Shown piece by piece: positions 8,047 through 33,112 of a DNA stretch of 64,000 nt. The DNA comes from Pseudomonadota bacterium. GTDB lineage: Bacteria; Pseudomonadota; Gammaproteobacteria; Burkholderiales; Burkholderiaceae_C. Below the pieces are notes generated by a model. That model searched no databases, was not told the origin of the DNA, and saw only the letters and a list, made by a program, of their open reading frames with translations. The stretch lies in contig JAIUPH010000026.1 in the NCBI GenBank assembly GCA_020161065.1, positions 62,001 to 126,000 of the forward strand, read 5' to 3'. Numbering within the stretch: the first letter of the stretch is position 1; each line of letters starts with the position of its first letter. The position numbers and the translations under genes were made by a program.

Positions 8047-8547
8047 TCAGCCGCCGCGCCGCGCGCCCCCGCGCTGCAGCGCGGCACCCGCCAGCATGGC
8101 CGGCACGAACCACAGCGCCTCGGGGTTGAGCAGGCCCAGCGCGGCGACCGCGGGGCCCGGGCAATAGCCAACCAATCCCCAGCCGACGCCGAACAGCGCC
8201 GAGCCCAGCAGCAGCGGTGCGTCCAGCCGCGGCGCGGCCGGCGGCTCGAAGGCCGGTGCCAGCCACGGCGCGCGGCGCCGGCGCAGCAGCAGCGCGAAGC
8301 CCGCCGCGGCCACCGGCACCGCGCTGCCCAGCACGAACAGCAGGCTGGCGTCCCAGGGGCCCAGCAGGTCCAGGAAGTTCAGCACCTTGCGCGGGTCGCT
8401 CATCTGCGAGACCACGAGCCCGGCGCCGAACACCAGCCCGGCCAGGGCGGCGGCGGCCAGTGTCGGCCAAGGTGACAGGCCCTCGTCCCCCGCCTGCTCC
8501 CGCACGCGGGAGCAGGCGCCCGCGTCGTGGTGTGCGGCGCGCTTCAT
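8047..8547 (-). CDS. YeeE/YedE-type membrane protein, C-terminal half (DUF6691)
   Basis: A 166-residue membrane protein with four hydrophobic segments and the family motif 'GWGLVGYCPGPAVAALG', whose Cys is conserved in YeeE/YedE sulfur-compound transporters. With the upstream gene it forms the usual two-gene version of this family, thought to take up thiosulfate or other sulfur species. The first ~25 residues ('SRVREQAGDEGLSPW') are unlike the family's normal short N-terminus and come from a strong DNA palindrome at 8491-8518, so this looks like an in-frame insertion. Its ATG overlaps the upstream stop codon (ATGA). Confidence 0.85.
   Translation of the reverse strand: MKRAAHHDAGACSRVREQAGDEGLSPWPTLAAAALAGLVFGAGLVVSQMSDPRKVLNFLDLLGPWDASLLFVLGSAVPVAAAGFALLLRRRRAPWLAPAFEPPAAPRLDAPLLLGSALFGVGWGLVGYCPGPAVAALGLLNPEALWFVPAMLAGAALQRGGARRGG
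8491..8518. repeat. Palindrome inside the DUF6691 coding sequence
   Basis: Perfect 12-base arms CGCCTGCTCCCG (8491-8502) and CGGGAGCAGGCG (8507-8518) around loop CACG. The element is translated in frame; the peptide 'SRVREQAGDEGL' resembles what the cysW element would encode on its opposite strand ([12 protein letters not shown]). It is probably a degraded single-hairpin member of the same palindrome family. Confidence 0.55.
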
Positions 8548-8993
8548 GCCAGCGCCAGCCCATGGCGCAGCAGCACCGCGGTGGCGATGCCGGTGGCCAG
8601 GAACACCGCCACCGCGGCCAGCGAGCGCGGCGACAGCCGCGCCAGCCCGCAGACGCCGTGGCCGCTGGTGCAGCCGCGCGCCAGCGCAGTGCCGTAGCCC
8701 ACCAGCAAGCCGCCGGCCAGCAGCAGCAGCGGCGGGTAGCCCATGCGCGGCGCGCCGAAGCGGCCGCCGAGCACGGCGCCCGCCAGCGCGGCGCCGGCGA
8801 CCAGGCCCAGCACGAAGGCGACGCGCCAGCCGCGGCCGCCGGCGGGGCGGCGGTCGAGCAGGCCGCCGACGATGCCGCTGATGCCGGCGATGCGGCCGAC
8901 CAGCCCAAACAGCAGCACGGCGGCCAGGCCGATCAGCGCGCCGCCGGCCACCGCGGCCAGCGGCGTGAAGGGAGTTGCAGTGACGAAGTTCAT
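8544..8993 (-). CDS. YeeE/YedE family sulfur transporter, N-terminal half
   Basis: A 149-residue membrane protein with four to five hydrophobic helices and the motif 'ARGCTSGHGVCGLARLS', which holds the conserved Cys residues of the YeeE/YedE family. In the fused thiosulfate transporter TsuA, conserved Cys residues relay the substrate through the pore; here the two halves are separate, overlapping genes. The ATG at 8993 is preferred because the first membrane helix starts soon after. Function as importer of a sulfur compound is by family only. Confidence 0.87.
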   Translation of the reverse strand: MNFVTATPFTPLAAVAGGALIGLAAVLLFGLVGRIAGISGIVGGLLDRRPAGGRGWRVAFVLGLVAGAALAGAVLGGRFGAPRMGYPPLLLLAGGLLVGYGTALARGCTSGHGVCGLARLSPRSLAAVAVFLATGIATAVLLRHGLALA

Positions 8994-9114
8994 GGGCGGC
9001 GACTCTAGCGGCCCCGCCACAGGGCCTGGCTGGTGGCGGCGCACGGCCGTTCAAGCCGACGCTTGCCGGCGTTCGTGACGAAGTACCGGCGGCCGGCCAT
9101 TTGTCGCGCAGGTC

Positions 9115-9142
9115 ATAAGTTTTCCCGACGCAAGGACGAGGG
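9115..9142 (+). promoter_or_regulatory. Possible sigma-28 (FliA) promoter for the chemoreceptor gene
   Basis: ATAAGTTT (9115-9122), a 12-base spacer and GACGAGGG (9135-9142) loosely resemble the flagellar sigma-28 pattern TAAAGTTT / GCCGATAA. Chemoreceptor genes often use this sigma factor. The -10 match is poor, so this is weak. Confidence 0.25.
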
Positions 9143-9197
9143 GGCGCCGTCCGAAGTTGCGGCATCCCTTGTCAAGGCATGTTTGAGGAGCCCTTCG

Positions 9198-10772
9198 ATG
9201 AATCTTCCGCGTCTCACCATCAAGGCCAAGCTGGGCCTGGCCTTCGGCGGCCTGGCCGCGTTGCTGCTGCTGGTGGCCACGATCGCGCTGCTGGCGCTGG
9301 GCGAAGCGAACACGCGCTTCAGCCGTTATGTCGAGGGCGTCAACGCCCGCGCCGTCCTGGCCGCGCAGGTGCGCCAGGCGGTGGACGCGCGCGCCATTGC
9401 CGCACGCAACATGGTGCTGGCCACGGCGACGGCCGATGCCGAGTCGGCGCAGGCCGCCGCCAAGGCCGCGCACGCCACCGTGCAGACGCAACTGGCGGTG
9501 CTGAAGAAGCAGCTCATCGATGCGCCCGACGCCACCGACAAGGGCCGCGCCATGGTGGGCGAGATCGACCAGATCGAAGCCAAGTACGGCCCGGTGGCGC
9601 TGGCCATCGTCGAGCTGGCCGCCGCCGGCAAGCGCGACGACGCCATCGCCAAGATGAACCGCGACTGCCGGCCGCTGCTGACGGCGCTGGGCAAGGCCTC
9701 CGACGACTACGCCTCGTTCAACGAAGACCGCGCGCGCCAGCTCGTCGTGCATTCGGCCGAGGAATATGCGCAGCAGCGCGGCATCGCGATCGGCGTGTGC
9801 GCCGTCGCCTTCCTGCTGGCGGTGGCCGCCGGCGTGTGGATCACCCGCGGGCTGCTGCGCGCGCTGGGCGCCGAGCCCGACCACCTGAGCCAGGCCGCCG
9901 ACCTGGTGGCGCGCGGCGACCTGAACGCGATCGCCGGCGCCGAGCGCGCGCCGTCGGGCAGCGTGATGGCGTCGCTGTCGGCCATGCAGGTCAGCCTGGC
10001 GGCCATCGTGCGCCAGGTGCGCGAGGCTTCCGAAGGCATCGCCAGCGGCTCGTCGCAGATCGCCCAGGGCAACGCCGACCTGAGCCAGCGCACCGAGGAG
10101 CAGGCCAGCGCGCTGCAGCAGACGGCGGCCACGATGGACGAGCTGAGCTCCACCGTGCGCAGCAACTCCGACAACGCGCGCCAGGCCGACCAGTTGGCCA
10201 ACGGCGCCTCCACCGTCGCCAGCCAGGGCGGCGAGGTGGTCGGCCAGGTGGTGCAGACGATGCGCGACATCAACACCACGTCGAAGAAGATCGCCGAGAT
10301 CATTTCGGTGATCGACAGCATCGCGTTCCAGACCAACATCCTGGCGCTCAACGCGGCCGTCGAGGCGGCGCGTGCCGGCGAGCAGGGCCGCGGCTTCGCG
10401 GTGGTGGCCGGCGAGGTGCGCTCGCTGGCGCAGCGCAGCGCCAGCGCGGCCAAGGAGATCAACACGCTGATCAGCGGCAGCGTCGACCAGGTGGAGCAAG
10501 GCGCCGTGCTGGCCGAGAAGGCGGGCTCGACGATGGCCGAGATCCTGGCCGCCATCCGCCGCGTCGGCACCACGGTGGCCGAGATCAGCGCCGCCAGCGC
10601 CGAGCAGAGCACCGGCGTCACGCAGGTGGGCCAGGCCGTCACGCAGATGGACCAGGTGACGCAGCGCAACGCGGCGCTGGTGGAAGAAAGCGCCGCCGCC
10701 GCCGAGGGCTTGCGGCAGCAGGCCGACCAGCTGGTGCAGTCGGTGGCGGTGTTCAAGCTGGCGCTGGGCTGA
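9198..10772 (+). CDS. Methyl-accepting chemotaxis protein
   Basis: A 524-residue transmembrane chemoreceptor: TM1 around residues 12-34, a periplasmic helical sensor of about 160 residues (four-helix-bundle type), TM2 near 190-215 ('[17 protein letters not shown]'), a HAMP linker and a long cytoplasmic signalling coil. The hairpin tip that binds CheA/CheW is the conserved '[20 protein letters not shown]', flanked by glutamine/glutamate-rich methylation helices. GAGGAG at 9185-9190 sets the ATG at 9198. No C-terminal CheR-tethering pentapeptide is seen. The ligand is unknown. It is a lone receptor with no other che genes here. Confidence 0.95.
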
Positions 10773-10785
10773 GCTGAGCTGAGCT
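10771..10785 (+). repeat. (GAGCT)x3 microsatellite at the chemoreceptor stop codon
   Basis: Three perfect GAGCT units start within the TGA stop (10770-10772). Slippage would not alter the protein, so a functional role is unlikely. Confidence 0.6.
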
Positions 10786-10810
10786 GCCGGAACGGAACGC
10801 GCAGCGCGCG

Positions 10811-10835
10811 CGGCGGGCCGGACGGCCGGCCGCCG
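10811..10835. terminator. Possible bidirectional terminator hairpin
   Basis: A GC-rich imperfect inverted repeat (CGGCGGGCCG-GACGG-CCGGCCGCCG) lies between the convergent chemoreceptor and TctC-type genes. There is no T-run, so it would act only as a weak or Rho-assisted terminator. Confidence 0.3.
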
Positions 10836-10845
10836 CCGCCGCGCT

Positions 10846-11820
10846 TCAATCGATCACGACGTTCGCCTGCTTCACGAGCCGGGCGAACTTTTCCGTCTCC
10901 TCCCGGATCTGCCGCGCCATCTGCTCCGGCGTGTTGCCGATCGGCTCGGCGCCGATCTCGTCCATGCGCTTTCTGAACTCCGGCGTGCGGATGATCTTCT
11001 GCATCTCGTCGGACAACCGGGTCGTGATGGCCTTGGGCGTGGCCGCCGGCGCCAGCACGCCGAACCAGGTGCCGATGTCGAAGCCGGGCAGGCCCGACTC
11101 GGCCAGCGTCGGCACCTGCGGCAGTGCCGACGAGCGCTTGGCCGTCGTCACCGCCAGCGGGCGCAGCTTGCCGGCCTGGATGTGCGGCAGCACCGGCGTG
11201 ATGGTGTCGAACGACATCGTCACCTGGCCGCCGAGCAGGTCGGTGGTCAGCGGCCCGCTGCCCTTGTAGGGGATGTGCAGCAGCGTCGTGCCCGTCTGGT
11301 TCTGGAACTGCGTGCCGATCAGGTGCTGCGCGGTGCCGTTGCCGTTGGAGCCGAAGCTCAACTCCGGCTTCGCGGCCTTGGCCTGCGCGACGAGGTCGGC
11401 CACCGACTTCGCCGGCGAGGCCGCGCTGACGACCAGCACGTTGGGCACCATCGCGATGAGGGTCAGCGGCTGGAAGTCGCGCTGCAAGTCGTACGGCAGC
11501 TTCTTGTAGACGCTGGTGGCGATGGTGTGGTGCACCGCGCCGACCAGCAGCGTGTAGCCGTCGGGCCTGGCCTTGGCGACGACGTCGGCGCCCAGCGTGG
11601 CGCCGGCGCCGGGCTTGCTTTCGACGATCACCGCCTGGCCGAGCGCGGCCTGCAGCTTCTCGGCCAGCGCCCGCGCCAGCACGTCGGTCGTGCCGCCGGC
11701 GGGAAACGGAACCACCAGCGTGATCGGCCTCTCGGGCCAGGCCTGCGCGCCGGCGCCGCCGGCCAGGCACAGGGCCGCGGCGGCCAGCATCGCGCGCCGC
11801 ATGGGCGTCGTTCTCGTCAT
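10846..11820 (-). CDS. Bug/TctC-family tripartite tricarboxylate transporter binding protein
   Basis: A 324-residue periplasmic binding protein with a signal peptide ending at 'GGAGAQA' followed by the family start 'WPERPITLVVPFPAGGTTD'. 'GSNGNGTAQHL' and 'PYKGSGPLTTDLLGGQV' are typical Bug motifs. Members capture carboxylates and similar small organic acids, some for a TctAB permease, many as orphans with no permease nearby, as here. The ATG at 11820 is chosen over an upstream one because the signal peptide begins with 'MTRTTPMRRAML'. It is on the same strand as the tartrate/malate dehydrogenase gene, 87 bases upstream, so a C4-dicarboxylate ligand is plausible. Confidence 0.93.
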   Translation of the reverse strand: MTRTTPMRRAMLAAAALCLAGGAGAQAWPERPITLVVPFPAGGTTDVLARALAEKLQAALGQAVIVESKPGAGATLGADVVAKARPDGYTLLVGAVHHTIATSVYKKLPYDLQRDFQPLTLIAMVPNVLVVSAASPAKSVADLVAQAKAAKPELSFGSNGNGTAQHLIGTQFQNQTGTTLLHIPYKGSGPLTTDLLGGQVTMSFDTITPVLPHIQAGKLRPLAVTTAKRSSALPQVPTLAESGLPGFDIGTWFGVLAPAATPKAITTRLSDEMQKIIRTPEFRKRMDEIGAEPIGNTPEQMARQIREETEKFARLVKQANVVID

Positions 11821-11907
11821 CGAATGTCTCCGCGGGTTGGACGTGGGTGGGACAGCGCGTGGCAACGGCGCCGCGCGCGGATGCTCAGCGTGTAGCGGCG
11901 CCGCGGC

Positions 11908-12984
11908 TCAGCGCGCGGCCGCGGCCAGCTGGCGGCAGACCGCTTGCGTGACCTCGGCCGTCGTCGCGCGGCCGCCGAGGTCGCGCGTGTGCAGCGCCGG
12001 CGTGGCGGTGACGGTCTCGATCGCCTGCATCAGGCGCCGCGCCGCGGCCGCCTCGCCGAGGTGCTCGAGCAGCATCACGCAGCTCCAGAAGGTGCCCACC
12101 GGGTTGGCCAGGCCCTGGCCCATGATGTCGAAGGCCGAGCCGTGGATCGGCTCGAACATGCTGGGGTAGCGGCGCTCGGGGTCGAGGTTGGCGGTCGGCG
12201 CGATGCCCAGGCTGCCGGCCAGCGCGGCCGCCAGGTCGCTGAGGATGTCGGCATGCAGGTTGGTCGCGACCACGGTGTCGATCGACGCCGGCCGGTTGAC
12301 CATGCGCGCGGTCATCGCGTCGACCAGTTCCTTGTCCCAGCGGACTTCGGGGAAGTCCTGCGCGACCTGCGCGGCCACCTCGTCCCACATCACCATCGCG
12401 TGCCGCTGCGCATTGCTCTTGGTGACGACGGTCAGCAGCCGGCGCGGCCGCGAGCGCGCCAGCTCGAAGGCGAAGCGCAGGATGCGCTCGACGCCGACGC
12501 GCGTCATCATCGAGACGTCGGTGGCCACCTCGATCGGATGGCCCTGGTGCGCGCGGCCGCCGACGCCGGCGTACTCGCCCTCGGAGTTCTCGCGCACGAT
12601 CACCCAGTCCAGGTCCTCGGGCCGGCAGCGCTTCAGCGGCGCGTCGATGCCCGGCAGGATGCGCGTCGGCCGCACGTTGGCGTACTGGTCGAAGCCCTGG
12701 CAGATCTTCAGCCGCAGGCCCCACAGCGTGACGTGATCGGGGATGTGCGGGTCGCCGGCCGAGCCGAACAGGATCGCGTCCTTGCCGCGCAGCGCCGCCA
12801 GGCCATCGGCGGGCATCATCTCGCCGTGGGCGCGGAACCAGTCGCCGCCCCAGCCGAAGTCTTCGAACTCGAAAGCGAAGCCACCCGAGGCGGCGGCTAC
12901 TGCTTCCAACACCCGGCGCCCCGCGGGCACCACTTCCTTGCCGATGCCGTCTCCGGGGATGGTGGCGATGGCGTAGGTCTTCAT
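11908..12984 (-). CDS. Tartrate/D-malate dehydrogenase family protein
   Basis: A 358-residue beta-decarboxylating dehydrogenase of the isocitrate/isopropylmalate family. Visible motifs are 'IPGDGIGKEVVPAG' at the N-terminus, 'VRENSEGEYAGVGG' and the nucleotide/metal-site region 'FEPIHGSAFDIMGQGLANP'. The 'WGLRLKICQGFDQYANVRP' stretch fits the TtuC/DmlA branch (tartrate dehydrogenase or D-malate dehydrogenase) better than LeuB. The ATG at 12984 is set by the conserved start 'MKTYAIATIPGD'. It is divergent from a LysR gene, the usual layout for D-malate or tartrate use, and precedes a TctC-type binding protein. TtuC and DmlA cannot be told apart by eye. Confidence 0.88.
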   Translation of the reverse strand: MKTYAIATIPGDGIGKEVVPAGRRVLEAVAAASGGFAFEFEDFGWGGDWFRAHGEMMPADGLAALRGKDAILFGSAGDPHIPDHVTLWGLRLKICQGFDQYANVRPTRILPGIDAPLKRCRPEDLDWVIVRENSEGEYAGVGGRAHQGHPIEVATDVSMMTRVGVERILRFAFELARSRPRRLLTVVTKSNAQRHAMVMWDEVAAQVAQDFPEVRWDKELVDAMTARMVNRPASIDTVVATNLHADILSDLAAALAGSLGIAPTANLDPERRYPSMFEPIHGSAFDIMGQGLANPVGTFWSCVMLLEHLGEAAAARRLMQAIETVTATPALHTRDLGGRATTAEVTQAVCRQLAAAAR

Positions 12985-13098
12985 GGGTCTCGTCCTGTCG
13001 TTGCTGGCCGTGGCCCGGACTGTAGGCAAGCGCAGCGGAAAAAATCGCGCCAGAATTCAATCCATGATGAACCGCAGGTTCACGCTCGGCGCGGCGGC
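12985..13098. promoter_or_regulatory. Divergent control region, dehydrogenase / LysR
   Basis: This 114-base gap contains the most AT-rich patch locally (about 13039-13069, with GGAAAAAATCG and CAGAATTCAATCC). Divergent promoters and LysR binding are expected here, but no convincing T-N11-A box could be fixed. A 12-codon open frame lies inside it and overlaps the LysR start. Confidence 0.35.
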
Positions 13099-13102
13099 AT
13101 GA
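13064..13102 (+). other. 12-codon ORF coupled to the LysR gene
   Basis: The frame reads MMNRRFTLGAAA and stops at a TGA (13100-13102) that overlaps the LysR ATG as ATGA. The peptide looks like the start of a twin-arginine or Bug-protein signal sequence ('NRRFTLGAA'). It could be a leader that couples translation, a remnant of a lost binding-protein gene, or chance. Confidence 0.3.
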
Positions 13103-14019
13103 ACAAGGTGATGCCGGCCGACCTGGCCTTCTTCTCGGTGCTGGCGCGCGTCGGCAGCCTCAGCGCCGCGGCGCGCGAACTGGGCATCTCGACGCCCGCC
13201 GTCAGCAAGCACCTGGCGCAGATGGAGTCGCGCGTGGGCGTGCGGCTGCTCAACCGCAGCACGCGGCGCATGAGCCTGACGCCCGAGGGCGAGCTCTACG
13301 TCGAGCACGCGCGCCGCATCCTGGGCGGCATCGAAGAACTCGAGCAGGCGCTGGGCGCCGTCAAGGCCACGCCCAAGGGGCTGCTGCGCGTCAATGCCAC
13401 GCTCGGCTTCGGGCGCAGCCACGTGGCGCCGCAGATCTCGCGTTTCAACCGCAAGTTCCCGCAGGTCGAAGTGCAGCTGCAGTTGTCGGTGGAGCCGCCG
13501 CCGCTGACCGACGATGCCTTCGACGTCTGCGTGCGCTTCGGCGCGCCGCCGGAATCGCGCGTCGTCGCGCGGCGGCTGGCGGCGAACCGCCGGCTGCTGT
13601 GCGCGGCGCCGGCGTATCTGGCGCGGCATGGCACGCCGCGCTTCCCCGAAGACCTGGCCCGCCACCAGTGCATCACCATCCGCCAGGGCAACCAGGCCTA
13701 TGGCGTCTGGCGCCTCACCGGCCGCGGCCGGCGCGGCACGTTGCAGTCGGTCAAGGTGGGCGGCGCGCTGTCGACCAACGACGGCGGCATCGCCGTCAAC
13801 TGGGCGCTGGACGGCCACGGCATCCTGATGCGCGCCGAGTGGGACATCGCCCGCCACCTGCGCAGCGGCCGGCTGGTGCAGGTCTTGCCGCAGTACGCCA
13901 CGCCGGATGCCGACATCTTCGCGGTCTACCCGCAGGGCCTGCGCGGCTCGCAGCGGGTGCTGGCCTTCGTCGACCACCTGGCGCTGGCCTTCGGCGGACG
14001 CGAGATCGGCGCGACCTGA
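13099..14019 (+). CDS. LysR-family transcriptional regulator
   Basis: A 306-residue regulator with the LysR N-terminal helix-turn-helix ('LARVGSLSAAARELGIS', 'PAVSKHLAQMESRVGVRLL') and a C-terminal effector-binding domain of the periplasmic-binding fold. It is divergent from the tartrate/malate dehydrogenase gene and most likely controls it in response to the substrate. The ATG at 13099 is the natural start, with 'MPADLAFFSVLARVG' following the first few residues; in-frame codons far upstream run antisense to the dehydrogenase and are not real. Confidence 0.92.
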   Translation: MNKVMPADLAFFSVLARVGSLSAAARELGISTPAVSKHLAQMESRVGVRLLNRSTRRMSLTPEGELYVEHARRILGGIEELEQALGAVKATPKGLLRVNATLGFGRSHVAPQISRFNRKFPQVEVQLQLSVEPPPLTDDAFDVCVRFGAPPESRVVARRLAANRRLLCAAPAYLARHGTPRFPEDLARHQCITIRQGNQAYGVWRLTGRGRRGTLQSVKVGGALSTNDGGIAVNWALDGHGILMRAEWDIARHLRSGRLVQVLPQYATPDADIFAVYPQGLRGSQRVLAFVDHLALAFGGREIGAT

Positions 14020-14071
14020 GGCCGGCACCGGCGCACGCCCTGGCTTCGCCCAACCCCGCCCAACGCGGAAC

Positions 14072-14101
14072 GCATAAGCATCGTCGCTTTCATTCGTTTC
14101 C
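14072..14101 (+). promoter_or_regulatory. Possible CysB-controlled promoter region of the sulfate operon
   Basis: An AT-richer stretch (ATAAGCA followed by CTTTCATTCGTTTC) lies 60-90 bases before sbp, in the only sizeable gap ahead of the operon. Sulfate-uptake operons are normally activated by the LysR-type protein CysB under sulfur limitation. The sequence is suggestive, but CysB sites are too loose to call by eye. Confidence 0.25.
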
Positions 14102-14161
14102 CGTTGCGGCGCCGCTTCCTAGCATGCGGGCATCGAATCTCACCGATGCGGAGCCCCGTTC

Positions 14162-15205
14162 ATGCGCTTGCCTTCCCTTCGCCGCCGCGCGGCGCTGGCC
14201 TTGTCTTGGTCCTTGTCGTTGTCGCTGGGCGCCTCGCTGGCCGCCGTGGCGCTGCCGGCCGCGGCGAAAGAGGTGGCGCTGCTCAACGTCAGCTACGACC
14301 CCACGCGCGAGCTGTACGCCGACTTCAACAAGGCCTTTGCCGCGCACTGGAAGGGCAAGACCGGCGACACCGTGGCGGTCAAGCAAAGCCACGGCGGGTC
14401 GGGCAAGCAGGCGCGCTCGGTGATCGACGGGCTGGATGCCGACGTGGTGACGCTGGCGCTGGCCTACGACGTCGACGAACTGGCCGCGAAGGCCAAGCTG
14501 ATCCCCGCCGACTGGCAAAAGCGCCTGCCGCACAACAGCTCGCCCTACACCAGCACCTACATCTTCCTGGTGCGCAAGGGCAACCCCAAGGGCATCAAGA
14601 ACTGGGACGACCTGGTCAAGCCCGGCGTCTCGGTGGTCACTGCCAACCCCAAGACCAGCGGCGGCGCACGCTGGGGCTACCTGGCAGCTTACGGATACGC
14701 GCTGAAGCAGCCCGGCGGCAATGACACCAAGGCGCGCGACTTCGTCGCCAAGTTGTTCAGCAACGTGCCGGTGCTGGACAGCGGCGCCCGCGGCTCCACC
14801 GTGACCTTTGCCGAGCGCGGCATCGGCGACGTGCTGCTGGCCTGGGAGAACGAAGCGCACCTGTCGCTCAAGGAATTCGGCGCCGACAAGTTCGACATCG
14901 TCTACCCGCCGCTCAGCATCCTGGCCGAGCCACCGGTGACCGTGGTCGACAAGAACGTCGACCGCCGCGGCACGCGCGCCGTGGCGCAGGCCTACCTCGA
15001 ATACCTGTACTCGCCCGAAGGCCAGGAGATCGCCGCGCGCCACTTCTACCGTCCGATCGAAGCCAAGGTGGCGGCCAAGTACGACAAGAGCTTTCCGAAG
15101 CTGAACCTCTTCACCATCGACGAGGTGTTCGGCGGCTGGACCCAGGCGCAGAAGACGCACTTCGCCGACGGCGGCGTGTTCGACCAGATCTACACCCGAA
15201 AGTAA
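14162..15205 (+). CDS. sbp: Sulfate ABC transporter periplasmic binding protein
   Basis: A 347-residue periplasmic protein with an N-terminal signal peptide (cleavage near 'LPAAAKE') and the Sbp/CysP signatures '[13 protein letters not shown]', '[19 protein letters not shown]' and '[10 protein letters not shown]', which hold the groups that bind sulfate by hydrogen bonds alone. It delivers sulfate or thiosulfate to the CysT-CysW-CysA transporter encoded directly downstream. The ATG at 14162 opens the signal peptide. The length is normal for the family. sbp and cysP naming overlaps; sbp is used here. Confidence 0.95.
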
Positions 15206-15224
15206 GCGTACCGCCGGCGCTGCG

Positions 15225-16061
15225 ATGATCTTTTCCCGCACCCTGCTGCGGCGGCACAGCGTGCTGCCCGGCTTCGACCTCGCGCTGGGCTTCGCGCTGC
15301 TGTACCTGAGCCTGATCGTGCTGATCCCGCTCTCGGCGGCGTTCCTCAAGACCTTCACGCTGAGCTGGGCCCAGTTCGTCGACGCGGTGGCCACGCCGCG
15401 CGTGCTGGCCTCGTACCGGCTGACCTTCGGCGCCTCGTTCGCGGCGGCGGCGCTGAACACCGTGTTCGGCCTCGTCATCGCCTGGGTGCTGGTGCGCTAC
15501 CGCTTCCCGGCCAAGCGCTTCGTCGACGCGCTGGTCGACCTTCCGTTCGCGCTGCCCACCGCGGTGGCCGGCATCGCGCTGACGGCCATCTACGCGCAAA
15601 ACGGCTGGATCGGCCGCTGGCTGCCGTTCAAGGTGAGCTTCACGCCGCTGGGCGTGTGGGTGGCGCTGGTCTTCATCGGGCTGCCCTTCGTGGTGCGCAC
15701 GCTGCAGCCGGTGCTGGAAGACCTGAACCGCGAGCTGGAAGAAGCCGCCGCAACCCTGGGCGCCAGCCGGCGGCAGACCTTCGCGAAGGTGATCCTGCCC
15801 ATCGTCACGCCGGCGCTGCTGACCGGCTTTGCGCTGGCCTTCGCGCGCGCCTTGGGCGAATACGGCAGCGTGATCTTCATCGCCGGCAACCTGCCGATGG
15901 TCAGCGAGATCACGCCGCTGCTCATCATCACCAAGCTGGAGCAGTACGACTACGCCGGCGCCACCGCGATCGCCGTGGTGATGCTGGTGGCCGCGTTTGC
16001 GTTGTTATTGATCATCAATCTGCTGCAGGCCTGGTCGCGCAAGCGGCAGGGGGGACTGTGA
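15225..16061 (+). CDS. cysT: Sulfate ABC transporter permease CysT
   Basis: A 278-residue inner-membrane permease with about six helices. The cytoplasmic coupling loop motif '[15 protein letters not shown]' contacts CysA, and '[19 protein letters not shown]' is typical of CysT. It forms half of the channel with CysW for sulfate/thiosulfate import. The start follows sbp by 19 bases, and the stop overlaps the cysW GTG start (GTGA), so translation is coupled. Confidence 0.95.
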
Positions 16062-17080
16062 GTACCGTGGCAGCCGGGCAGAGGCCCTCACCCCTGACCC
16101 TCTCCCGCAAGCGGGAGAGGGAGTCCACGCCCCCTCTCCCGCTTGCGGGAGAGGGTTGGGGTGAAGGCCGGCGCACCGCAACGGCCGAGCCGCGCTGGGT
16201 GCAATGGACGCTGATCGCGCTGGCGCTCGGCTTCATGACGCTGTTTCTCTTCATCCCGCTGGCCACCGTCTTCGCCGAGGCTTTCAAGAAGGGCTGGCAG
16301 GTCTACCTGACGGCCATCACCGAGCCCGACGCGCTGGCGGCGATCAAGCTGACGCTGATCGCCGCCGCCATCAGCGTGCCGCTGAACCTGGTCTTCGGCC
16401 TGGCGGCGGCCTGGGCGATCGCCAAGTTCGACTTCCGCGGCAAGCAGCTGCTGCTGACGCTGATCGACCTGCCGTTCTCGGTGAGCCCGGTGATCGCCGG
16501 CCTGATCTACGTGCTGGTGTTCGGGCTGCAGGGCTGGTTCGGCGAATGGTTGCGCGAGCACGACCTGAAGATCATCTTTGCGGTGCCCGGCATCGTGCTG
16601 GCCACGGTGTTCGTGACCTTCCCTTTCGTCGCCCGCGAGCTGATTCCGCTGATGCAGGCGCAAGGCATCGAGCAGGAAGAGGCGGCGCGCGTGCTGGGCG
16701 CCGGCGGCTGGCAGATCCTGCGCCGCGTGACGCTGCCCAACGTGCAGTGGGCGCTGCTGTACGGCGTGATCCTGTGCAACGCGCGCGCGATGGGCGAGTT
16801 CGGCGCCGTCAGCGTGGTCTCGGGCCACATCCGCGGCCAGACCAACACGATGCCGCTGCACATCGAGATCGCCTACAACGAATACCAGTTTGCCGCCGCC
16901 TTCGCGGTGGCATCGCTGCTGGCCGCGCTGGCGCTGGTGACGCTGGCGCTGAAGTACCTCGTCGAACGCCGGCTGCAACAGGAAAAGCGCGGGATCCCTC
17001 AAGTTGATCCGGCTCTGGCGGTCAACTTGAACCCCCGCGGGGGGCGGGCCGGGCTGGCCCGGACCAGGGGGCACTCATGA
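16058..17080 (+). CDS. cysW: Sulfate ABC transporter permease CysW with palindrome-encoded N-terminal insert
   Basis: A 340-residue permease. From residue ~45 onward it is a normal CysW: first helix after '[14 protein letters not shown]', coupling loop '[17 protein letters not shown]', and '[19 protein letters not shown]'. Residues ~10-37 are abnormal and are the translation of a DNA palindrome (16085-16167), giving a charged then Gly/Pro-rich peptide ('[20 protein letters not shown]'). The insert sits ahead of the first membrane helix, where it should be harmless. The GTG start at 16058 overlaps the cysT stop; no later start codon is better placed. The stop overlaps the cysA ATG. Confidence 0.93.
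16085..16167. repeat. In-frame palindromic repeat element within cysW
   Basis: A nested palindrome. Outer arms are CCCTCACCCC (16085-16094) and GGGGTGAAGG (16158-16167). It contains two hairpins with identical 11-base arms: CCCTCTCCCGC-AA-GCGGGAGAGGG (16098-16121) and CCCTCTCCCGC-TT-GCGGGAGAGGG (16132-16155). It has no stop codon in the cysW frame. A related element lies in gspB. Confidence 0.9.
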
Positions 17081-18102: not shown

Positions 18103-18130
18103 GCGCCGGGAAGCGCCGGGAAGCGCCGTA

Positions 18131-18146
18131 AAGCGGCGGGCCGCTT
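18131..18146 (+). terminator. Short hairpin after cysA
   Basis: AAGCGG-CGGG-CCGCTT forms a perfect 6-base stem 28 bases after the cysA stop, between convergent genes and just after a GCGCCGGGAA tandem. There is no T-run, so its efficiency is uncertain. Confidence 0.4.
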
Positions 18147-18181
18147 GCGCGGACGGCCCGCCCCGCGTCGCCCGCCAACCC

Positions 18182-22544: not shown

Positions 22545-22568
22545 CGGTGAAACTATGGCACAGCGCGT

Positions 22569-22599: not shown

Positions 22600-22723
22600 C
22601 GGCACTCGGGGCCGTCGAAGCCCCCTGCACCCTCGGGGTCCTCGGGTGACGCACCGATGCCCGACGGCCGCGCGACGCGCTAGGCTAGTGCCCCCGTTGT
22701 TGCAGCCTCTCCGCAGTACCCCC

Positions 22724-23860: not shown

Positions 23861-23902
23861 CTGGAGCCCCCGGCCGTCGGGCGGCCGCCCCCCGTGGGGG
23901 CA

Positions 23903-23936
23903 CCGAACCCGACCGGCAAAGCCGGATCGGGTTCGG
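23903..23936. terminator. Strong hairpin after the binding-protein gene
   Basis: CCGAACCCGACCGGC, loop AAA, then GCCGGATCGGGTTCGG: a 15-base stem with one bulged base, 42 bases after the stop. It lacks a T-run, but its stability and placement fit a terminator or 3'-end protecting structure. The flanks (GCCCCCCGTGGGGGC, and CCCTC/GAGGGGG pairs) add smaller stems. Confidence 0.55.
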
Positions 23937-24071
23937 CCCGCTTCTCACCGCCGCTCCCCCTGGTCGCCTGCGGCGGCCTGTCCCCGAGGGGGAAGGCGGC
24001 GCTGCGTACGACGGGTATCGGGTAGCGGCGTAAACTGATTCGCTCCCCTCTTTGCCAGCAGCAGGCCCGCC

Positions 24072-25265: not shown

Positions 25266-25272
25266 GGCCGCG

Positions 25273-26382: not shown

Positions 26383-26392
26383 CGCCGCCGAC

Positions 26393-27403
26393 GTGGATTC
26401 GCTGACCCACGTCGCGCTGGGCGCCGCGGTCGGCATGGCGGTGCTGCGCCGGCGCACGGCGCCGTGGAAGGCGGCGCTGTGGGGCGCGGTGGCCGGCACG
26501 CTGCCCGACCTGGACGTGCTGGTCGACCACGGCGACCCCATCCTCGACATGGTGCTGCACCGCGCCGAGTCGCACGCGCTGTTCTGGCTGACGCTGGCGT
26601 CGCCGCTGCTCACCGCGCTGGTCGTCGCCGTGCACCGCGAGCAGGCGCATTGGCGCGCGTGGTGGCTGGCGCTTTGGCTGGCGCTGGTGACGCATCCGCT
26701 GCTGGACGCCCTCACCGTGTACGGCACGCAGCTCGCGCTGCCGTTCTCCAACCGGCCGTTCGGCGTGGGCAGCGTCTTCATCATCGACCCGCTGGTCACG
26801 CTGCCGTGGCTGGCCGGCGCCGCCTGGGCACTGGCCGCGCGCGGCAGCACGGCCGGGCTGCGCGCCAATGCCATCGGACTGGCGCTCGGTGGCGCCTACC
26901 TCGCCTGGGGCCTGGCGGCGCAGGCCATCGTCACGCAGCGCGCGCAGGCCGCGCTGCAGCCGCAAGGCATCGTGGCCGAGCGGCTGCTGGTCACGCCGGC
27001 GGCCTTCAGCTCGCTGTTGTGGCGCGTGGTGGCGGTGTCCGGCGCGCAATACCACGAAGGTTTTCACTCGCTGCTGGACGCGCCGGAGCCGATCGCCTTC
27101 GATCGCTTCGAGCGCGGCGCCGCGCTCGACGAGCAGTTCCGCGCCAACGCCGATGTGCAGCGCATCCGCGACTTCAGCCGCGGCTTGTACAAGCTGCACG
27201 CCGCCGGCGAACGCGTCGTCGTCGCCGACCTGCGGATGGGCGTCGAACCCGACTACACCTTCGCTTTCGCGGTGGCCGAGCGCGGACCCCCACCGCGGCC
27301 GCTGGCGCCGCCGCAGGCCGTTGGCCGGCGGCCCGACCTCGTGCGCGCCTGGCCCTGGCTGTGGCGGCGTACGCTGGGCGATCCGCTGCCACCGCCGCGC
27401 TGA
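26393..27403 (+). CDS. Membrane-bound metal-dependent hydrolase, YdjM/DUF457 family
   Basis: A 336-residue inner-membrane protein starting at GTG 26393. 'MDSLTHVALGAAVG' at the N-terminus, 'LHRAESHALFW' and 'THPLLDALTVYGT' carry the conserved His/Asp of the YdjM family (E. coli member LexA-regulated). About five hydrophobic helices are followed by a soluble C-terminal part. It is ten bases after the peptidase gene and ends 13 bases from a convergent HAD gene. Confidence 0.87.
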   Translation: MDSLTHVALGAAVGMAVLRRRTAPWKAALWGAVAGTLPDLDVLVDHGDPILDMVLHRAESHALFWLTLASPLLTALVVAVHREQAHWRAWWLALWLALVTHPLLDALTVYGTQLALPFSNRPFGVGSVFIIDPLVTLPWLAGAAWALAARGSTAGLRANAIGLALGGAYLAWGLAAQAIVTQRAQAALQPQGIVAERLLVTPAAFSSLLWRVVAVSGAQYHEGFHSLLDAPEPIAFDRFERGAALDEQFRANADVQRIRDFSRGLYKLHAAGERVVVADLRMGVEPDYTFAFAVAERGPPPRPLAPPQAVGRRPDLVRAWPWLWRRTLGDPLPPPR

Positions 27404-27416
27404 GCGGCACAAATCT

Positions 27417-28058
27417 TCATCGAGCCGCGCCGGCCGGCAGCCAGCCGCGCTGCCGCAGCGCCTGCTCGCACGACGTGGCATCGGCGAACTGCAGCGTCTG
27501 CCAGCCGCGGCCGGCGGCGGCCTGCACGTTGCCGGCGTGGTCGTCGATGAACAGCGTGTGCGCCGGGTCGAGCGCGAAGCGCGTTTCCGCCAGCGCATAG
27601 ATCGCGGCATCGGGCTTCATCAGCCCGACGCGGCCCGAGAAGATGCCGTCGGCAAACTCGGCGATGAAGGGGTTGCAACGTTCCAGGTGATCGGCATACG
27701 GCCGCGGCATGTTCGACAGGTAGAACAGCCGGTGCCCGGCGGCGCGCAGCGGGCCGAGCAGCGCCACAGTGGCGGGCTGCGGCTGCAGGTGCGGCGGGAT
27801 GGCGTCGATCACGCGCCGGGCCTGCGCCGCGCCGATGCCGATGCGCGCGGCGATGCGCTCGGCCAGCTCGGCCTCGGCGATGCGGCCGAGGTCGAAGCGC
27901 GCCCAGTCGCTGTCGGGCGTGAAGCTCTCGAAGATCTGCGCCGCCAGCCGGCGCGCGGCGGCGTCGTCGGTGGCCAGTTCGGGCACGCAGCCGCGCAGCA
28001 GCGCCAGCGGCTGCCACTGGAAGAGCACGGCGCCGAAGTCGAAGACGACGGCGCTCAT
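27417..28058 (-). CDS. HAD-superfamily hydrolase (subfamily IA)
   Basis: A 213-residue phosphatase-like protein: nucleophile Asp7 in 'VVFDFGAVLF', motif II 'FYLSNMP', Lys in 'GLMKPDAAIY' and acidic motif IV 'LFIDDHAGNVQAA'. The second Asp of the usual DxD is Gly here, as in the 'DFGGV' group that includes epoxide-hydrolase-N/YihX-like sugar-phosphate phosphatases. Its ATG overlaps the pgi stop, so it probably acts on a sugar phosphate; YihX dephosphorylates glucose-1-phosphate. Confidence 0.88.
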   Translation of the reverse strand: MSAVVFDFGAVLFQWQPLALLRGCVPELATDDAAARRLAAQIFESFTPDSDWARFDLGRIAEAELAERIAARIGIGAAQARRVIDAIPPHLQPQPATVALLGPLRAAGHRLFYLSNMPRPYADHLERCNPFIAEFADGIFSGRVGLMKPDAAIYALAETRFALDPAHTLFIDDHAGNVQAAAGRGWQTLQFADATSCEQALRQRGWLPAGAAR

Positions 28059-29695
28059 CGCATCAGTCGCTGCAGCAGCCCCGCGGTGGAGCCGTCCAGC
28101 CCTGCCGCATCGCCATTGGCGAAGCGCGGCAGCAACTGGTTGCACAAGGCCTTGCCCAGTTCCACGCCCCATTGGTCGAAGCTGTTGATGCCCCACAGCG
28201 CGCCGCTGGTGAACACGCGGTGCTCGTACATCGCCAGCAGCGCGCCCAGCGAACGCGGCGTCAGCTCGTCCAGCACGAAGGTGGTGCTGGGCCGGTTGCC
28301 GGGAAAGCTGCGCTGCCGCGCCAGCGCCGCGCGGTCGACCGTGGGCGATGCGGTGGGCGGGTGCTCGGTGGCCGCCTCGGCGGCGGTCTTGCCCTGCATC
28401 AGCGCCTGGCTTTGCGCCAGGCAGTTGGCCAGCAGCATGGTGTGCAGCGCCGGGTAGTCGTGGCCCGGCCGCTTGACGGCGATGAACTCGACCGGAATCA
28501 CGTCGGTGCCCTGATGCAGCATCTGGAAGTAGGCATGCTGGCCGTTGGTGCCGGGCTCGCCCCAGACCACCGGGCTGGTGCCCAGCGTGGCGGGCAGCGG
28601 CTCGCCGTCGGCGCCGACGCGCTTGCCGTTGCTTTCCATCTCCAGTTGCTGCAGGTAGGCCGGCAGCCGGCGCAGGCCCTGGTGATAGGGCGCGATGCTG
28701 CGCGAGGCGAAGCGGTGGAAGTTGCGGTACCAGACGTCCAGCAACCCCAACTGCAGCGGCAGGTTGGCGGCGGGCGCGGCCTCGACGAAGTGGCGGTCCA
28801 TCGCGTGCGCGCCGGCCAGCAGCGCGCGGAAGTTCGCCGCGCCGATGGCGATGGCGATCGGCAGGCCGATCGCGCTCCACAGCGAGTAGCGGCCGCCCAC
28901 CCAGTCCCAGAAGCCGAAGGTGCGCGCGATGCCGAACGCGGCGGCCGCCTGCACGTTGGTGGTGGTGGCGCAGAAGTGGCGGCCGATTTCGCTTTCGGCC
29001 ATGCCCTGCGCCAGGAACCAACGCCGCGCCACGGCGGCGTTGGCCATGGTCTCCTGCGTCGTGAAGGTCTTGCTGGCGATGATGAACAGCGTCTGGCGCG
29101 GCTGCAGTTCGCGCAGCACCGGCGCGATGTCGTGGCCGTCGACGTTGCTGACGAAGTGCAGCCGCAGGCCGCGCTGGCCGAAGGCGTCGAGCGCCGGCAC
29201 CGCCATCGCCGGGCCCAGGTCGCTGCCGCCGATGCCGATGTTGACCACGTCGGTGAAGGCACCGTCGCCGCGCACCTGCTCGGCGAAGGCCAGCATCTCG
29301 TCGAGCACGCCGTGCACCTCGGCGCTGAACGGCGCGGTGCCGGGCGGCGCGCGCAAGGCGGTGTGCAGCACGGCGCGGCCTTCGCTGGTGTTGATGGGCG
29401 CGCCGGCGAACATGGCGTCGCGCCGCTCGGCGATGCGGCATTCGCGCGCCAGGTCGAGCAGGAAGCGCCGCGTCGCCACGTCGATGAGGTTCTTCGACAA
29501 GTCGGCAAAGACCTCGGGCGCCTGCAGGCTGAAGGCGTCGAAGCGGCCGGCGTCGCGCGCGAAGGCCTCGCGCAGGTCCAGCTCGCGGCCATGGGCCTCG
29601 AAGTGGCCTTGCAGCGCGCCCCAGGCCTTGGTGCGGTCGCAGCGGGGCGCGGTGACGACGGCGGCGGCGGCGGCGGAGGCCGCGGCGGCGTTCAT
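28055..29695 (-). CDS. pgi: Glucose-6-phosphate isomerase
   Basis: A 546-residue enzyme interconverting glucose-6-P and fructose-6-P. Motifs are '[12 protein letters not shown]', '[15 protein letters not shown]', the family signature around '[10 protein letters not shown]', and '[13 protein letters not shown]' with the catalytic His. The full family length is present. An Ala-rich N-terminal run is slightly longer than usual. The stop overlaps the HAD gene start, and its start overlaps the tal stop by four bases: one operon tal-pgi-HAD. Confidence 0.96.
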
Positions 29696-30645
29696 GCGCG
29701 CGCCTTGTCGATCAGCGCGTCCAGCTTCACGGCATCGGCGGCGAAGGCGCGGATGCCTTCGGCCAGCTTGTCGCTGGCCATCGCGTCTTCGTTCAGCGCC
29801 CAGCGGAAGCTGCGCTCGTCGTGGTGCACGGCCGGCAGGTCCATCGCCTGCGCGGCGGCCGCGTCCAGCGCGCGCGGCACCGGCGCGTCGGCGCCCTGCA
29901 ACTGGGCCAGCAGCTCGGGGCTGATGGTCAGCAGGTCGCAGCCGGCCAGCGCCAGCACCTGGCCGACGTTGCGGAAGCTGGCGCCCATCACTTCGGTCTT
30001 GATGCCGTGGCGCTTGTAGTGGTTGAAGATCGCCGTCACCGAGCGCACGCCGGGGTCGTTGGCGCCGGCGTTGGCGGCCTCGTCCCAGGCCGCGCCGGCG
30101 GCCTTCTTGTACCAGTCGTAGATGCGGCCGACGAAGGGGCTGATCAGCCGCACGCCGGCGTCGGCGCAGGCCACGGCCTGGCAGAAGGCGAACAGCAGCG
30201 TCAGGTTGCAGTGGATGCCTTCGCGCTCCAGCGTCTCGGCGGCGCGGATGCCTTCCCAGGTGGCCGCCACCTTGACCAGCACGCGCTCGCGGCCGACGCC
30301 GGCCGCGGCGTAGAGGTCGACCAGCCGGCGCGCGCGCGCCACGCTGGCCGCGGTGTCGAACGACAGCCGCGCATCGACCTCGGTGCTGACGCGGCCGGGA
30401 ACGATCTTCAGGATCTCCAGACCGAAGCGCACCAGCACGCGGTCGACCAGCGCGTCCAGCGGCTCGCCGCGGTGCGCGGCCACCGCGTCGGCCAGCAGCG
30501 GCGCGTAGTCGGCCTGCTGCACCGCCTTGAGGATCAGCGACGGGTTGGTCGTGGCGTCGCGCGGCGCGAAGGCCGCCATCTGCTTGAAGTTGCCGGTGTC
30601 GGCGACGACGACGGTGTACTGCTTCAGTTGATCGAGCTGGTTCAT
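29692..30645 (-). CDS. tal: Transaldolase
   Basis: A 317-residue class I transaldolase of the TalB type: '[11 protein letters not shown]' near the N-terminus, the Schiff-base Lys in '[11 protein letters not shown]', and '[12 protein letters not shown]', '[13 protein letters not shown]'. It moves a dihydroxyacetone unit between sugar phosphates in the pentose phosphate pathway. It is the first gene of the tal-pgi-HAD operon. No HexR-like palindrome like that before zwf was seen upstream. Confidence 0.96.
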
Positions 30646-30698
30646 GCCGGCATTAGAACCCGAGCGCGCGCGAAGGGGTTACCAACGGGGTACGGGCT

Positions 30699-32381
30699 AT
30701 GCTGCCGGCCATGTACGCGCCCTTCTTCGGCCTGCGGCAGGAGGCGTTCGCGATCGCACCCGATCCGCGCTTCCTGCACCTGAGCACGATGCACCGCGAA
30801 GCGCTGGCGCATCTGCTGTACGGGCTGCAGGGCGGCGGCGGCTTCGTGCTGCTGACCGGCGAGATCGGCACCGGCAAGACCACGGTGTGCCGCTGCTTCC
30901 TCGATCAGATTCCCCCGGGCCACCGCGTCGCCTACGTCTACAACCCCAAGCTCACGCCGGTGGAGCTGCTGCAGACCATCTGCCAGGAGTTCGGCATCGC
31001 GCTCGATGCGGCGGCGCCGCCGCCGGCCACCGTCAAGCCGTACATCGACGCGCTCAACCGCTTCCTGCTGGACACGCACGCGCGCGGCGAAAAGTGCCTG
31101 CTGGTGGTCGACGAAGCGCAAGCCCTGTCGGCCGACCTGCTGGAGCAATTGCGGCTGCTGACCAACCTGGAGACCACCGAGCGCAAGCTGCTGCAGATCG
31201 TGCTGATCGGCCAGCCCGAGCTGCGCGACAAGCTGGCGCGGCCCGAGCTGGAGCAGTTGTCGCAGCGCGTGATCGCGCGCGTGCACCTGGGGCCGCTGAC
31301 CGCCGCCGAGACCGCCGACTACGTGCAGCACCGGCTGACGGTGGCGGGCTTGAGCGGCCCCTCGCCTTTCGACCGCCGCGCGCTGGCGCGCGTGCACGCC
31401 TTGAGCGGCGGCGTGCCGCGGCGCATCAACCTGCTGTGCGAGCGCGCGCTGCTCGGCGCCTACGCCGAAGGCCGCCCGCACGTCGACGCGGCCACCGTGC
31501 GCCGCGCGGCGCTGGAAGCCTTCGGCGCCGAACGGCCGCGCGGCCGCCGCCGCGGCTGGCCCTGGGCCTGGCCGGCCGGCCTGCTGGCGCTGGGCGCCGC
31601 GGTGGCGGTGGCGGTGGCGGCGGTGCTGCCGCGGCACTGGCCGTTCGCGGGCACGGCGGCGCGGCCGGCGGCATCTACCGCATCGGCCGCAGCGGCCGCA
31701 GCGGCCGCAGCGGCGGCAGCGACGGCCGGCTCGGCGGCGTCGGCCGCATCCGCACCATCGGCCGCCATCGCCGTCGTCGACACGCCCACGCCTTTTGCCG
31801 ATGCCGAGGCCGCCGGCGCTGCACTGGCCGCCGCCTGGGGGCTGGCGGCGTCGGCCCCTGGCGGTGCTGCCGGCGCGAACGGCGCGAACACCGCGACCGG
31901 CGATGCCTGCAGCCGCGCGCGCACGCTGGGCCTGGCCTGCCACCAGGGCCGCGGCGACCTGGCGCTGCTGCGCCGCCTGGACCGCCCGCTGCTGCTGACG
32001 CTGAACGGCGACGGCATGGTGCTGCTGCAGGCGCTGGGCAGCGATCACGCGCTGCTGCGCGGCGCCGCCGGCGAGCAGCGGCTGTCGCTGCAACGCCTGC
32101 CGGCGCTGTGGAGCGGCGAGTGGCTGGCCTGGTGGCGGCCGCCGCCGCTGGCGGCCGACCGGCCCGCGGCCGACTGGGCGCTGGAGCGCTTGCTCGCGCT
32201 GCAAGGCGCCGACAGCCCCAGCGCCCCGCCGGTGGCCCGCGACGAAGCCTTGCGCCGGCGCGTCTACGCCTTCCAGCTGGCGCAAGGCCTGCCGGCCGAT
32301 GGCCTGCTGGGCCCGCTGACGCTGATGCAGATCCAGCGCGCCGCCGGCGCCGACGAACCCCAGCTGCGCGCGGAGCCCTGA
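30699..32381 (+). CDS. exeA: ExeA-like general secretion ATPase with peptidoglycan-binding domain
   Basis: A 560-residue protein. The N-terminal AAA ATPase has Walker A 'GEIGTGKTT' and Walker B 'CLLVVDEAQ'. A membrane helix lies near residues 288-307, then comes an Ala-rich linker made of tandem DNA repeats, and a C-terminal peptidoglycan-binding helix set ('FQLAQGLPADGLLGPLTL'). In Aeromonas, ExeA with ExeB opens the wall for assembly of the type II secretin. The partner gene overlaps directly downstream (TGATG). The start could also be the ATG at 30711. Other type II secretion genes are not in the window. Confidence 0.9.
   Translation: MLPAMYAPFFGLRQEAFAIAPDPRFLHLSTMHREALAHLLYGLQGGGGFVLLTGEIGTGKTTVCRCFLDQIPPGHRVAYVYNPKLTPVELLQTICQEFGIALDAAAPPPATVKPYIDALNRFLLDTHARGEKCLLVVDEAQALSADLLEQLRLLTNLETTERKLLQIVLIGQPELRDKLARPELEQLSQRVIARVHLGPLTAAETADYVQHRLTVAGLSGPSPFDRRALARVHALSGGVPRRINLLCERALLGAYAEGRPHVDAATVRRAALEAFGAERPRGRRRGWPWAWPAGLLALGAAVAVAVAAVLPRHWPFAGTAARPAASTASAAAAAAAAAAAATAGSAASAASAPSAAIAVVDTPTPFADAEAAGAALAAAWGLAASAPGGAAGANGANTATGDACSRARTLGLACHQGRGDLALLRRLDRPLLLTLNGDGMVLLQALGSDHALLRGAAGEQRLSLQRLPALWSGEWLAWWRPPPLAADRPAADWALERLLALQGADSPSAPPVARDEALRRRVYAFQLAQGLPADGLLGPLTLMQIQRAAGADEPQLRAEP
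31684..31719 (+). repeat. 9-bp tandem repeat in the exeA linker
   Basis: Four head-to-tail copies of CGGCCGCAG, the last with one mismatch, encode part of a poly-Ala linker. Slippage would lengthen or shorten the linker in steps of three residues without breaking the frame. Confidence 0.8.
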
Positions 32382-33112
32382 TGTCGTACATCCTCGATGC
32401 CCTGCGCCGTGCCGAGGCCGAACGCCGCCGCGGCGAGCCGCCGGCGCTCGACCAGGTGGCGCGCTGGCCGACGCTGGACACCGCGCCGGCGAGGCCGCGC
32501 GACGGCCGCGCCGGCTGGCTGCTTACGTTGGCGGCGGCGCTGTGCCTGGCGCTGGCCGTCGCGGCTTGGTGGGGCTGGTCGAGGCCGTCGCCGACAGCGG
32601 CGCCGCCCTTGGCCACGGCACCGGTCACGGCGCCGGCGCCACCGCCGCCAAGGCCGGTGGTTGCTCAGCCCAGCGCCGAGCCGGCTGCGACGCCCCTCAC
32701 CCCTACGCTCTCCCCGCGGGGAGAGGACACGAACGCCCTCTCCCGCAAGGCGGGAGAGGGCCGGGGTGAGGGTGGGAGCGCCGGCCTGAACCGCACGACA
32801 TCAAAGCAGTCCACAGCCGCAGCCAAGCCCGCCGCATCGACCGCCAGCGCGCCCGTCGCACCCGCCGCCAGCGCCCCCGCGCCGCCCCCGGTCAACGCCG
32901 CCACGCTGCCCGAAGCGCAGCGCAGCGCGCTGGCCCGTCTGGGCCTGGCCGGCGGCGTCTACTCGCCCGAGCGCAGCCAGCGCTTCGTGCTGGTGGGCGG
33001 GCAGATCGCGCACGAAGGCGACCCGCTGGCGCCGGGCATCGTGCTGGAACGCATCCAGCCGCGCTCGGTGCTGCTGCGCGTCGAGGGGCGGCTGGTCGAG
33101 ATGCCGTTGTGA
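32381..33112 (+). CDS. gspB: General secretion protein GspB (ExeB-like) with palindrome-encoded linker
   Basis: A 243-residue protein starting 'MSYILDALRRAEAERRRG', the typical N-terminus of GspB/ExeB. One membrane helix (about 46-66) is followed by a Pro/Ala linker and a C-terminal GspB domain ('YSPERSQRFVLVGGQIAHEG', 'LVEMPL'). It is the periplasmic partner of the ATPase encoded upstream. The linker contains an in-frame palindromic DNA element (32694-32772) encoding 'TPLTPTLSPRGEDTNALSRK' and a Gly/Glu-rich tail. Confidence 0.88.
   Translation: MSYILDALRRAEAERRRGEPPALDQVARWPTLDTAPARPRDGRAGWLLTLAAALCLALAVAAWWGWSRPSPTAAPPLATAPVTAPAPPPPRPVVAQPSAEPAATPLTPTLSPRGEDTNALSRKAGEGRGEGGSAGLNRTTSKQSTAAAKPAASTASAPVAPAASAPAPPPVNAATLPEAQRSALARLGLAGGVYSPERSQRFVLVGGQIAHEGDPLAPGIVLERIQPRSVLLRVEGRLVEMPL
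32694..32772. repeat. In-frame palindromic repeat element within gspB
   Basis: Perfect outer arms CCCTCACCCC (32694-32703) and GGGGTGAGGG (32763-32772) enclose two hairpins: CTCTCCCCGCGGGGAGAG (32708-32725) and CCCTCTCCCGC-AAG-GCGGGAGAGGG (32736-32760). The architecture and arm sequences match the element in cysW. Confidence 0.9.

Follow-up and report, generated by a model that had tools for sequence, protein, structure and literature searches.

Two nested palindromes within cysW and gspB

The sequence analyzed here, a 64,000-nucleotide window of contig JAIUPH010000026.1 from a Pseudomonadota bacterium of the order Burkholderiales, carries cysW, which encodes a sulfate permease subunit, and gspB, which encodes type II secretion protein B. 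Each gene contains a nested palindrome, of 83 bp at 16085–16167 (cysW) and 79 bp at 32694–32772 (gspB), and in each palindrome a single unit occurs twice, once inverted: CCCTCTCCC, a loop, GGGAGAGGG, 3–4 nt, and GGGTGAGGG. In both cases the arms CCCTCACCCC/GGGGTGAGGG point outward, with a single mismatch in one cysW arm. By sequence, these palindromes belong with TM_ECO, a repeat described by Holder et al. (2015, PMC4666352), and we propose below that they are small mobile elements read in frame (units of this type are called TM units hereafter; Table 1).

The pattern CCCTCTCCCN{2,12}GGGAGAGG matches the window six times (three hairpins, both strands) and is absent from each of 100 shuffles, while single-strand DNA folding gives z = −10.3 for cysW and −6.3 for gspB, with none of 200 shuffles folding equally well. 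What stands out is the combination of arm and stem rather than either alone: with one mismatch allowed, there is no enrichment in the window of the outer-arm 10-mer (4 matches versus 6.3 expected) or of the stem 9-mer CTCTCCCGC (16 versus 47). Pattern counts, shuffles and folding thus bear out the two nested palindromes, with their arms, that an earlier note on this DNA had described. No Rfam family is found in the window at the gathering threshold, and a search of the insert peptide against plasmids returned a single match, in Pantoea (E = 8e-3), at a place with no annotated gene.

Both elements lie in open frame. Three of six reading frames are free of stop codons in the cysW element, and four of six in that of gspB. 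The GTG start of cysW overlaps the cysT stop, the frame is open throughout, and the insert accounts for residues 10–37 (hand-counted). In gspB, the insert forms residues 105–131 (hand-counted), within a Pro/Ala linker; a single-sequence structure model gives it no secondary structure (block predicted local distance difference test score, pLDDT, of 46–50), and the C-terminal domain is well predicted (73–90). Beyond its Pfam match, GspB scores 43.7 bits against NF037978, under that family's cut-off of 100.

The same note had counted a third, single-hairpin relative at the N-terminus of the DUF6691 gene. There is a real hairpin here (z = −5.2), with stem CTGCTCCCGC, but it has no outer arms and does not match the TM family pattern; its own pattern, GCTCCCGCN{0,8}GCGGGAGC, has a single match across the 6.29 Mb of the genome, as does its reversed control. 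The different stem, the missing arms and the single genomic place rule it out as a member, so that the observation stands for two sites of the three.

Table 1. Features of the window, with matches to the TM_ECO pattern where applicable
Feature	Position	Strand	Remarks
DUF6691-gene N-terminal hairpin	8491..8518		not a family member
cysW, sulfate permease subunit	16058..17080	+	TIGR02140, 416 bits (cut-off 329)
cysW TM unit 1	16085..16121	-	CCCTCTCCC-GCTTGC-GGGAGAGGG-TCAG-GGGTGAGGG, read on minus strand
cysW TM unit 2	16132..16167	+	CCCTCTCCC-GCTTGC-GGGAGAGGG-TTG-GGGTGAAGG; strict pattern, 1 mismatch
gspB, type II secretion protein B	32381..33112	+	PF16537, 49.2 bits (cut-off 28.4)
gspB TM unit 1	32694..32728	-	diverged, 2 mismatches
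gspB TM unit 2	32736..32772	+	CCCTCTCCC-GCAAGGC-GGGAGAGGG-CCG-GGGTGAGGG

Dispersed copies across the genome

The window's genome (G000; 6.29 Mb in 41 contigs) contains many further copies. Genome-wide, CTCTCCCN{4,14}GGGAGAG finds 19 hairpins versus 3 for the reversed control pattern, and CTCACCCCN{2,12}CTCTCC finds 16 places versus 0. When a TM site is required to have one or more arms, a hairpin half and a total of three motifs, there are 14: two in frame within genes, one ending a gene, and 11 intergenic. The genome-wide search for the repeat proposed earlier therefore yields 12 sites besides those of cysW and gspB. Two facing hairpins are present at 4 of the 14. Gene calls, made with a codon-pair model trained on the window, are rough; by these calls, the distance to a predicted gene 3′ end is at most 17 nt for seven of the 11 intergenic copies, and one copy is 1 nt away from a predicted start. 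At L002 (contig C4, ~203.0 kb), a predicted gene takes its final residues and its stop from the TM unit.

Some copies form part of larger repeats. One of these, 165 bp long, includes a TM pair and occurs at two unlinked places, L013 (C21, ~87.1 kb) and L030 (C37, ~165.6 kb), with 89% identity (147/165); at L013 its ends, GCAACGAAG and CTTCGTTGC, give it the look of a small transposon-like element. Behind the TM units of L014 (C32, ~17.8 kb) and L029 (C37, ~126.2 kb) lies a second palindrome, CCCTCGGGGAC.GGTCGCC.CAGGCGACCAGGGGG, seemingly of another repeat family. At L005 (C7, ~103.9 kb), a variant with a TTCTCCC/GGGAGAA stem and a CCCTCATCCC arm adjoins the TM unit.

Relation to known palindromic repeats

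TM_ECO is defined by the pattern CCCTCNCCC N3–6 GGGNGAGGG N3 GGGNGAGGG; it is described as a potential intrastrand triplex element and was counted 3610 times across 262 proteobacterial genomes (PMC4666352, which also leads to earlier work of Hoyne and Maher on potential intrastrand triplexes). The window's elements share with it the three blocks, the inverted pairing, the lack of a mobility gene beside the repeat (Holder et al. found none) and copy numbers that are patchy between close relatives. If up to one mismatch is allowed, 11 of the 14 G000 sites match the strict pattern on one strand or both. The four window units fit it less closely: one matches strictly, two others do so once a loop is lengthened by one base, and the fourth departs from it at two positions. 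Thus unit 1 of cysW has no mismatch with a 4-nt second loop (three with a 3-nt loop), and unit 2 of gspB has none with a 7-nt first loop (two under the strict pattern). Their second loops read TTG, TCAG, CCG and TAG, where those of the E. coli copies read TTA or CCG (PMC4666352). Like TM_ECO, the repeat occurs as dispersed copies and inverted pairs (14 sites in G000; 138 matches in the related genome G025). The principal difference is location. All TM_ECO copies of E. coli MG1655 are intergenic according to the same source, where this is reported rather than made part of the definition, whereas several copies here lie in frame inside genes (in G000, two of 14 are intragenic and one ends a gene).

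The comparison with Rickettsia palindromic elements made in the earlier note is an analogy of behavior; by sequence the window's elements are of TM_ECO type. The Rickettsia repeats, too, combine intergenic palindromic copies with copies fused in frame to conserved proteins, but they measure 105–146 bp rather than 79 and 83 bp (PMC2229807, in part). A second parallel is provided by the GTAG- and CGTC-tagged repetitive extragenic palindromes (REPs), which are described as in-frame intragenic palindromes, often paired, whose hosts include uvrA and DNA ligase; flexible linkers and loops have been suggested as the tolerant places (PMC3733652, in part). REPs differ in carrying a GTAG or CGTC tag, the GTAG type often near RAYT genes. 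Neither tetranucleotide flanks the hairpins of the window's family, whose flanks are TCACCCC/GGGGTGA arms; the tag here is GGGGTGAGGG, with no link seen to Y1 transposases. In open-licence PubMed Central literature, no in-frame TM_ECO copies or peptides of such copies appeared among the top matches, which is weak evidence of novelty, and seven insert peptide strings had zero matches.

Presence and absence among orthologues

We read the CysW tail preceding the first membrane helix at 105 loci, some of which evidently represent one genome twice; one locus (L065) is cut by a contig end, and in seven the script did not locate the cysT stop. TM sequence is present in this tail only in the window's genome. 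Three apparent carriers (L055, L151, L182) were discarded, as they hold a chance 7-mer and no TM peptide, and the flanks of 80 named cysW loci contain no TM site. The tail varies naturally in length, from MIATTEPRWVQ (L062) to far longer forms; the nearest named loci are from Rubrivivax, Methylibium and Burkholderiales, which probably places the organism in their group. For GspB, 24 of 30 loci were processed by script and 17 were readable, from MSYIL or VSYIL onward; the window's own is the only one of these with TM sequence. In both proteins, then, the peptide occurs only in the window's genome among the orthologues read. Separately, the GspB linker at L088 (genome G012) holds PSPRAGEGSGTEG, encoded by CCTTCGCCGCGCGCGGGCGAAGG, perhaps a decayed element.

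In-frame copies in related genomes

To extend the survey, 80 stretches were fetched from six genomes of the same genus (1 from G000, 19 from G010, 6 from G012, 19 from G023, 9 from G032 and 26 from G034), and 95 TM sites, including the 14 of G000, were scored for in-frame position; the scored set leaves out five places in G034 and one in G032, the G032 sites being those among the matches listed. The scorer reported five sites at its first threshold and 11 at a looser one; L234, which passed the first threshold only, is uncounted. The threshold had been loosened after cysW and gspB were missed, and since both were missed again, the scoring has low sensitivity where Pro and Ala abound. The looser set of 11 lies in genes for HrpA (three), a UvrA-like protein (three), UreC (two), LigA, a DUF2126 amidoligase and a two-domain ABC ATPase (Pfam, NCBIfam assignments), bringing the total, with cysW and gspB, to at least 13 of 95. 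Nucleic-acid enzymes host 7 of these 13, although long genes are more easily detected by the score. No frame-breaking copy was confirmed among the 95 sites, in a scoring that genes broken beyond recognition would escape. Four sites have coding sequence on both sides, on one strand and in different frames; judged by eye from the end peptides, these appear to be ordinary gene junctions.

Copies at the same places are seen in three enzymes. In HrpA, the copy of G023 (L226) and that of G034 (L251) share one offset within DUF3418, 306–307 residues from the domain start. The UreC stretch between TWQTAHKM and DN.R..R is 14 residues long in 25 of the 30 orthologues; G010 and G023 have a whole TM unit there, making 29 and 33 residues, and three others (G035, G030, G002) have 25–26 residues without TM DNA. 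The best solved relative, 8hcn_C, reads QRGALAEETGDNDNFR at the insertion place. Because G010 and G023 do not group as sisters on a tree of the UvrA-like protein, the UreC copies go back to two separate insertions, to ureC transfer or to losses in other genomes. The UvrA-like protein carries TM sequence in its linker in 3 of 15 readable genomes and in its first loop in 3 of 22; in both cases the three are G010, G034 and G025, which form one clade on the same tree. In the UvrA-like protein, as in UreC, most orthologues have an empty site. The linker arrangement differs in each of the three genomes (a pair, a single hairpin, differently facing units), and the coding frame stays open in all of them. 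In G025 (L391, about 3570–3870), a further piece is even nested between GGGG and TGAG of the TM unit, the frame remaining open. Since these arrangements differ and all preserve the frame, they are the best evidence of turnover under frame selection. The scorer called only 1 of 34 sites in G025 in frame and did not report this linker copy.

Copy number and candidate movers

Across 61 genomes, counts of the TM pattern range from 0 to 154, with at least one match in 24; single matches mean little, because reversed controls also give single hits in a few genomes. Counts differ sharply between neighbors on the UvrA-like tree, which was built by a quick method and has some open forks: G022 and its sister G033 have 26 and 0, G023 and its sister G020 have 36 and 0, and G008, with 27, falls in a group with G017 and G003 (both 0). 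G025, with 138 full matches, has at least 20 copies of one 87–92-nt TM pair with distinct flanks, some of which share further flanking sequence and others not. In this pair (for example at L395, L405 and L404) the arms point inward, and it often lies within a longer repeat with CCAGGAACC and GGTTCC in its outer parts.

Y1 (RAYT-type) transposases (PF01797) were sought in eight genomes with at least 16 TM matches, several of them drafts. At least one is encoded in G010, G022, G025 and G034, and none was found in G000, G008, G023 or G032. With the enzyme missing from four of eight TM-rich genomes, it does not look required, and a Y1 transposase as general mover is unsupported.

Discussion

We consider it probable, at roughly 0.75, that inverted pairs of TM_ECO type are a small non-autonomous mobile element, kept in genes where it happens to lie in frame at a tolerant place. 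Some process within this genus would copy or move TM pairs as small units. Copies would land genome-wide, and most landings in genes would be lost; the survivors would be those whose net change keeps the frame, with the element in a stop-free frame, and which sit in disordered tails, in linkers between domains or in loops. The extra residues are probably a by-product that the protein tolerates. At the level of sequence, the comparisons show a family resemblance, dispersed copies, presence or absence relative to orthologues and in-frame reading; they also show that copies recur in tolerant locations and that they turn over at a single linker across three closely related species. From these we infer movement as such and the peptide's lack of function. 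The suggestion that the repeat is or once was mobile, and that it tolerates being translated, is accordingly well supported by the lack of the peptide in orthologues, the 12 further sites and the in-frame cases in relatives, once the DUF6691 hairpin is set aside. Neither a peptide shared among orthologues nor a lack of other genomic copies was found for the cysW and gspB elements.

Several points weigh against this explanation. No mover was identified, Y1 transposases being absent from four of the eight TM-rich genomes, and three of the four window units fall outside the strict published TM_ECO pattern. Translation of the inserts and their retention in the mature protein are likewise what we infer. 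The CysW structure model (mean pLDDT 54.7) is too weak to show disorder. Finally, the peptide-level absence of the insert from orthologues does not extend to a precise nucleotide-level absence: no exact empty site was obtained for the cysW and gspB copies, even the closest relatives having diverged too far, and target duplication was therefore not seen.

Other explanations deserve consideration. The element could be kept for a role at the RNA or DNA level, for instance in the stability or polarity of cysT–cysW mRNA or as a replication or recombination signal, with translation incidental. The very stable folds and the proximity of most intergenic copies to predicted gene 3′ ends would suit such a role, and roles of this kind have been discussed for REPs (PMC3733652, in part). 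Nonetheless, we regard it as unlikely: the cysT–cysW junction has no terminator-like or promoter-like site, the gspB, UreC and UvrA-like copies are inside coding sequence, closely related species lack the element at the same genes, and TM_ECO in E. coli is described as having no consistent regulatory position (PMC4666352, in part). A little less likely is that TM repeats, as a coding mobile element of this betaproteobacterial group, enter the same places of the same enzymes repeatedly, through target preference or because the peptide or local DNA structure is sometimes selected, perhaps for altering repair enzymes. Its basis is the recurrence in the urease loop (G010, G023), the DUF3418 loop of HrpA (G023, G034) and the UvrA-like linker (G010, G034, G025); for REPs, Di Nocera et al. 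speculated on such an effect.

For cysW alone, the element might be a noncoding leader, with translation beginning behind it at a GTG at 16199. The codon-pair coding model places the start there, the TIGR02140 match begins only at residue 48, and many N-terminal REPs are said to be misannotated (PMC3733652, in part). Yet orthologues start at the overlapping GTG or ATG and read a conserved ATTEPRW stretch, whose counterpart in the window's genome (ATAEPRW) sits between the insert and 16199; the coding model is insensitive here, having missed most of gspB too, and a leader is inapplicable to gspB, where the insert is internal. We therefore find this improbable. Origin of the palindromes in place by mutation, or as ancestral peptides lost elsewhere, is scarcely credible. 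The CysW N-terminal tail and the GspB linker do vary freely in length and make-up, but near-identical DNA occurs at other, unlinked places, and the element is found in unrelated genes and in different reading frames.

If the TM pairs are indeed mobile elements, the repeat type is a known one, TM_ECO, met here in a coding variant. In-frame palindromic insertion would thus be extended from the Rickettsia elements and the GTAG/CGTC REPs to the widespread TM_ECO repeats. The inserts may serve as natural maps of tolerant places in UreC, the UvrA-like protein, HrpA and LigA, and TM insertion would account for odd peptides that otherwise resemble protein features. Sister species rich and poor in TM copies would, moreover, allow a comparative search for the mover.

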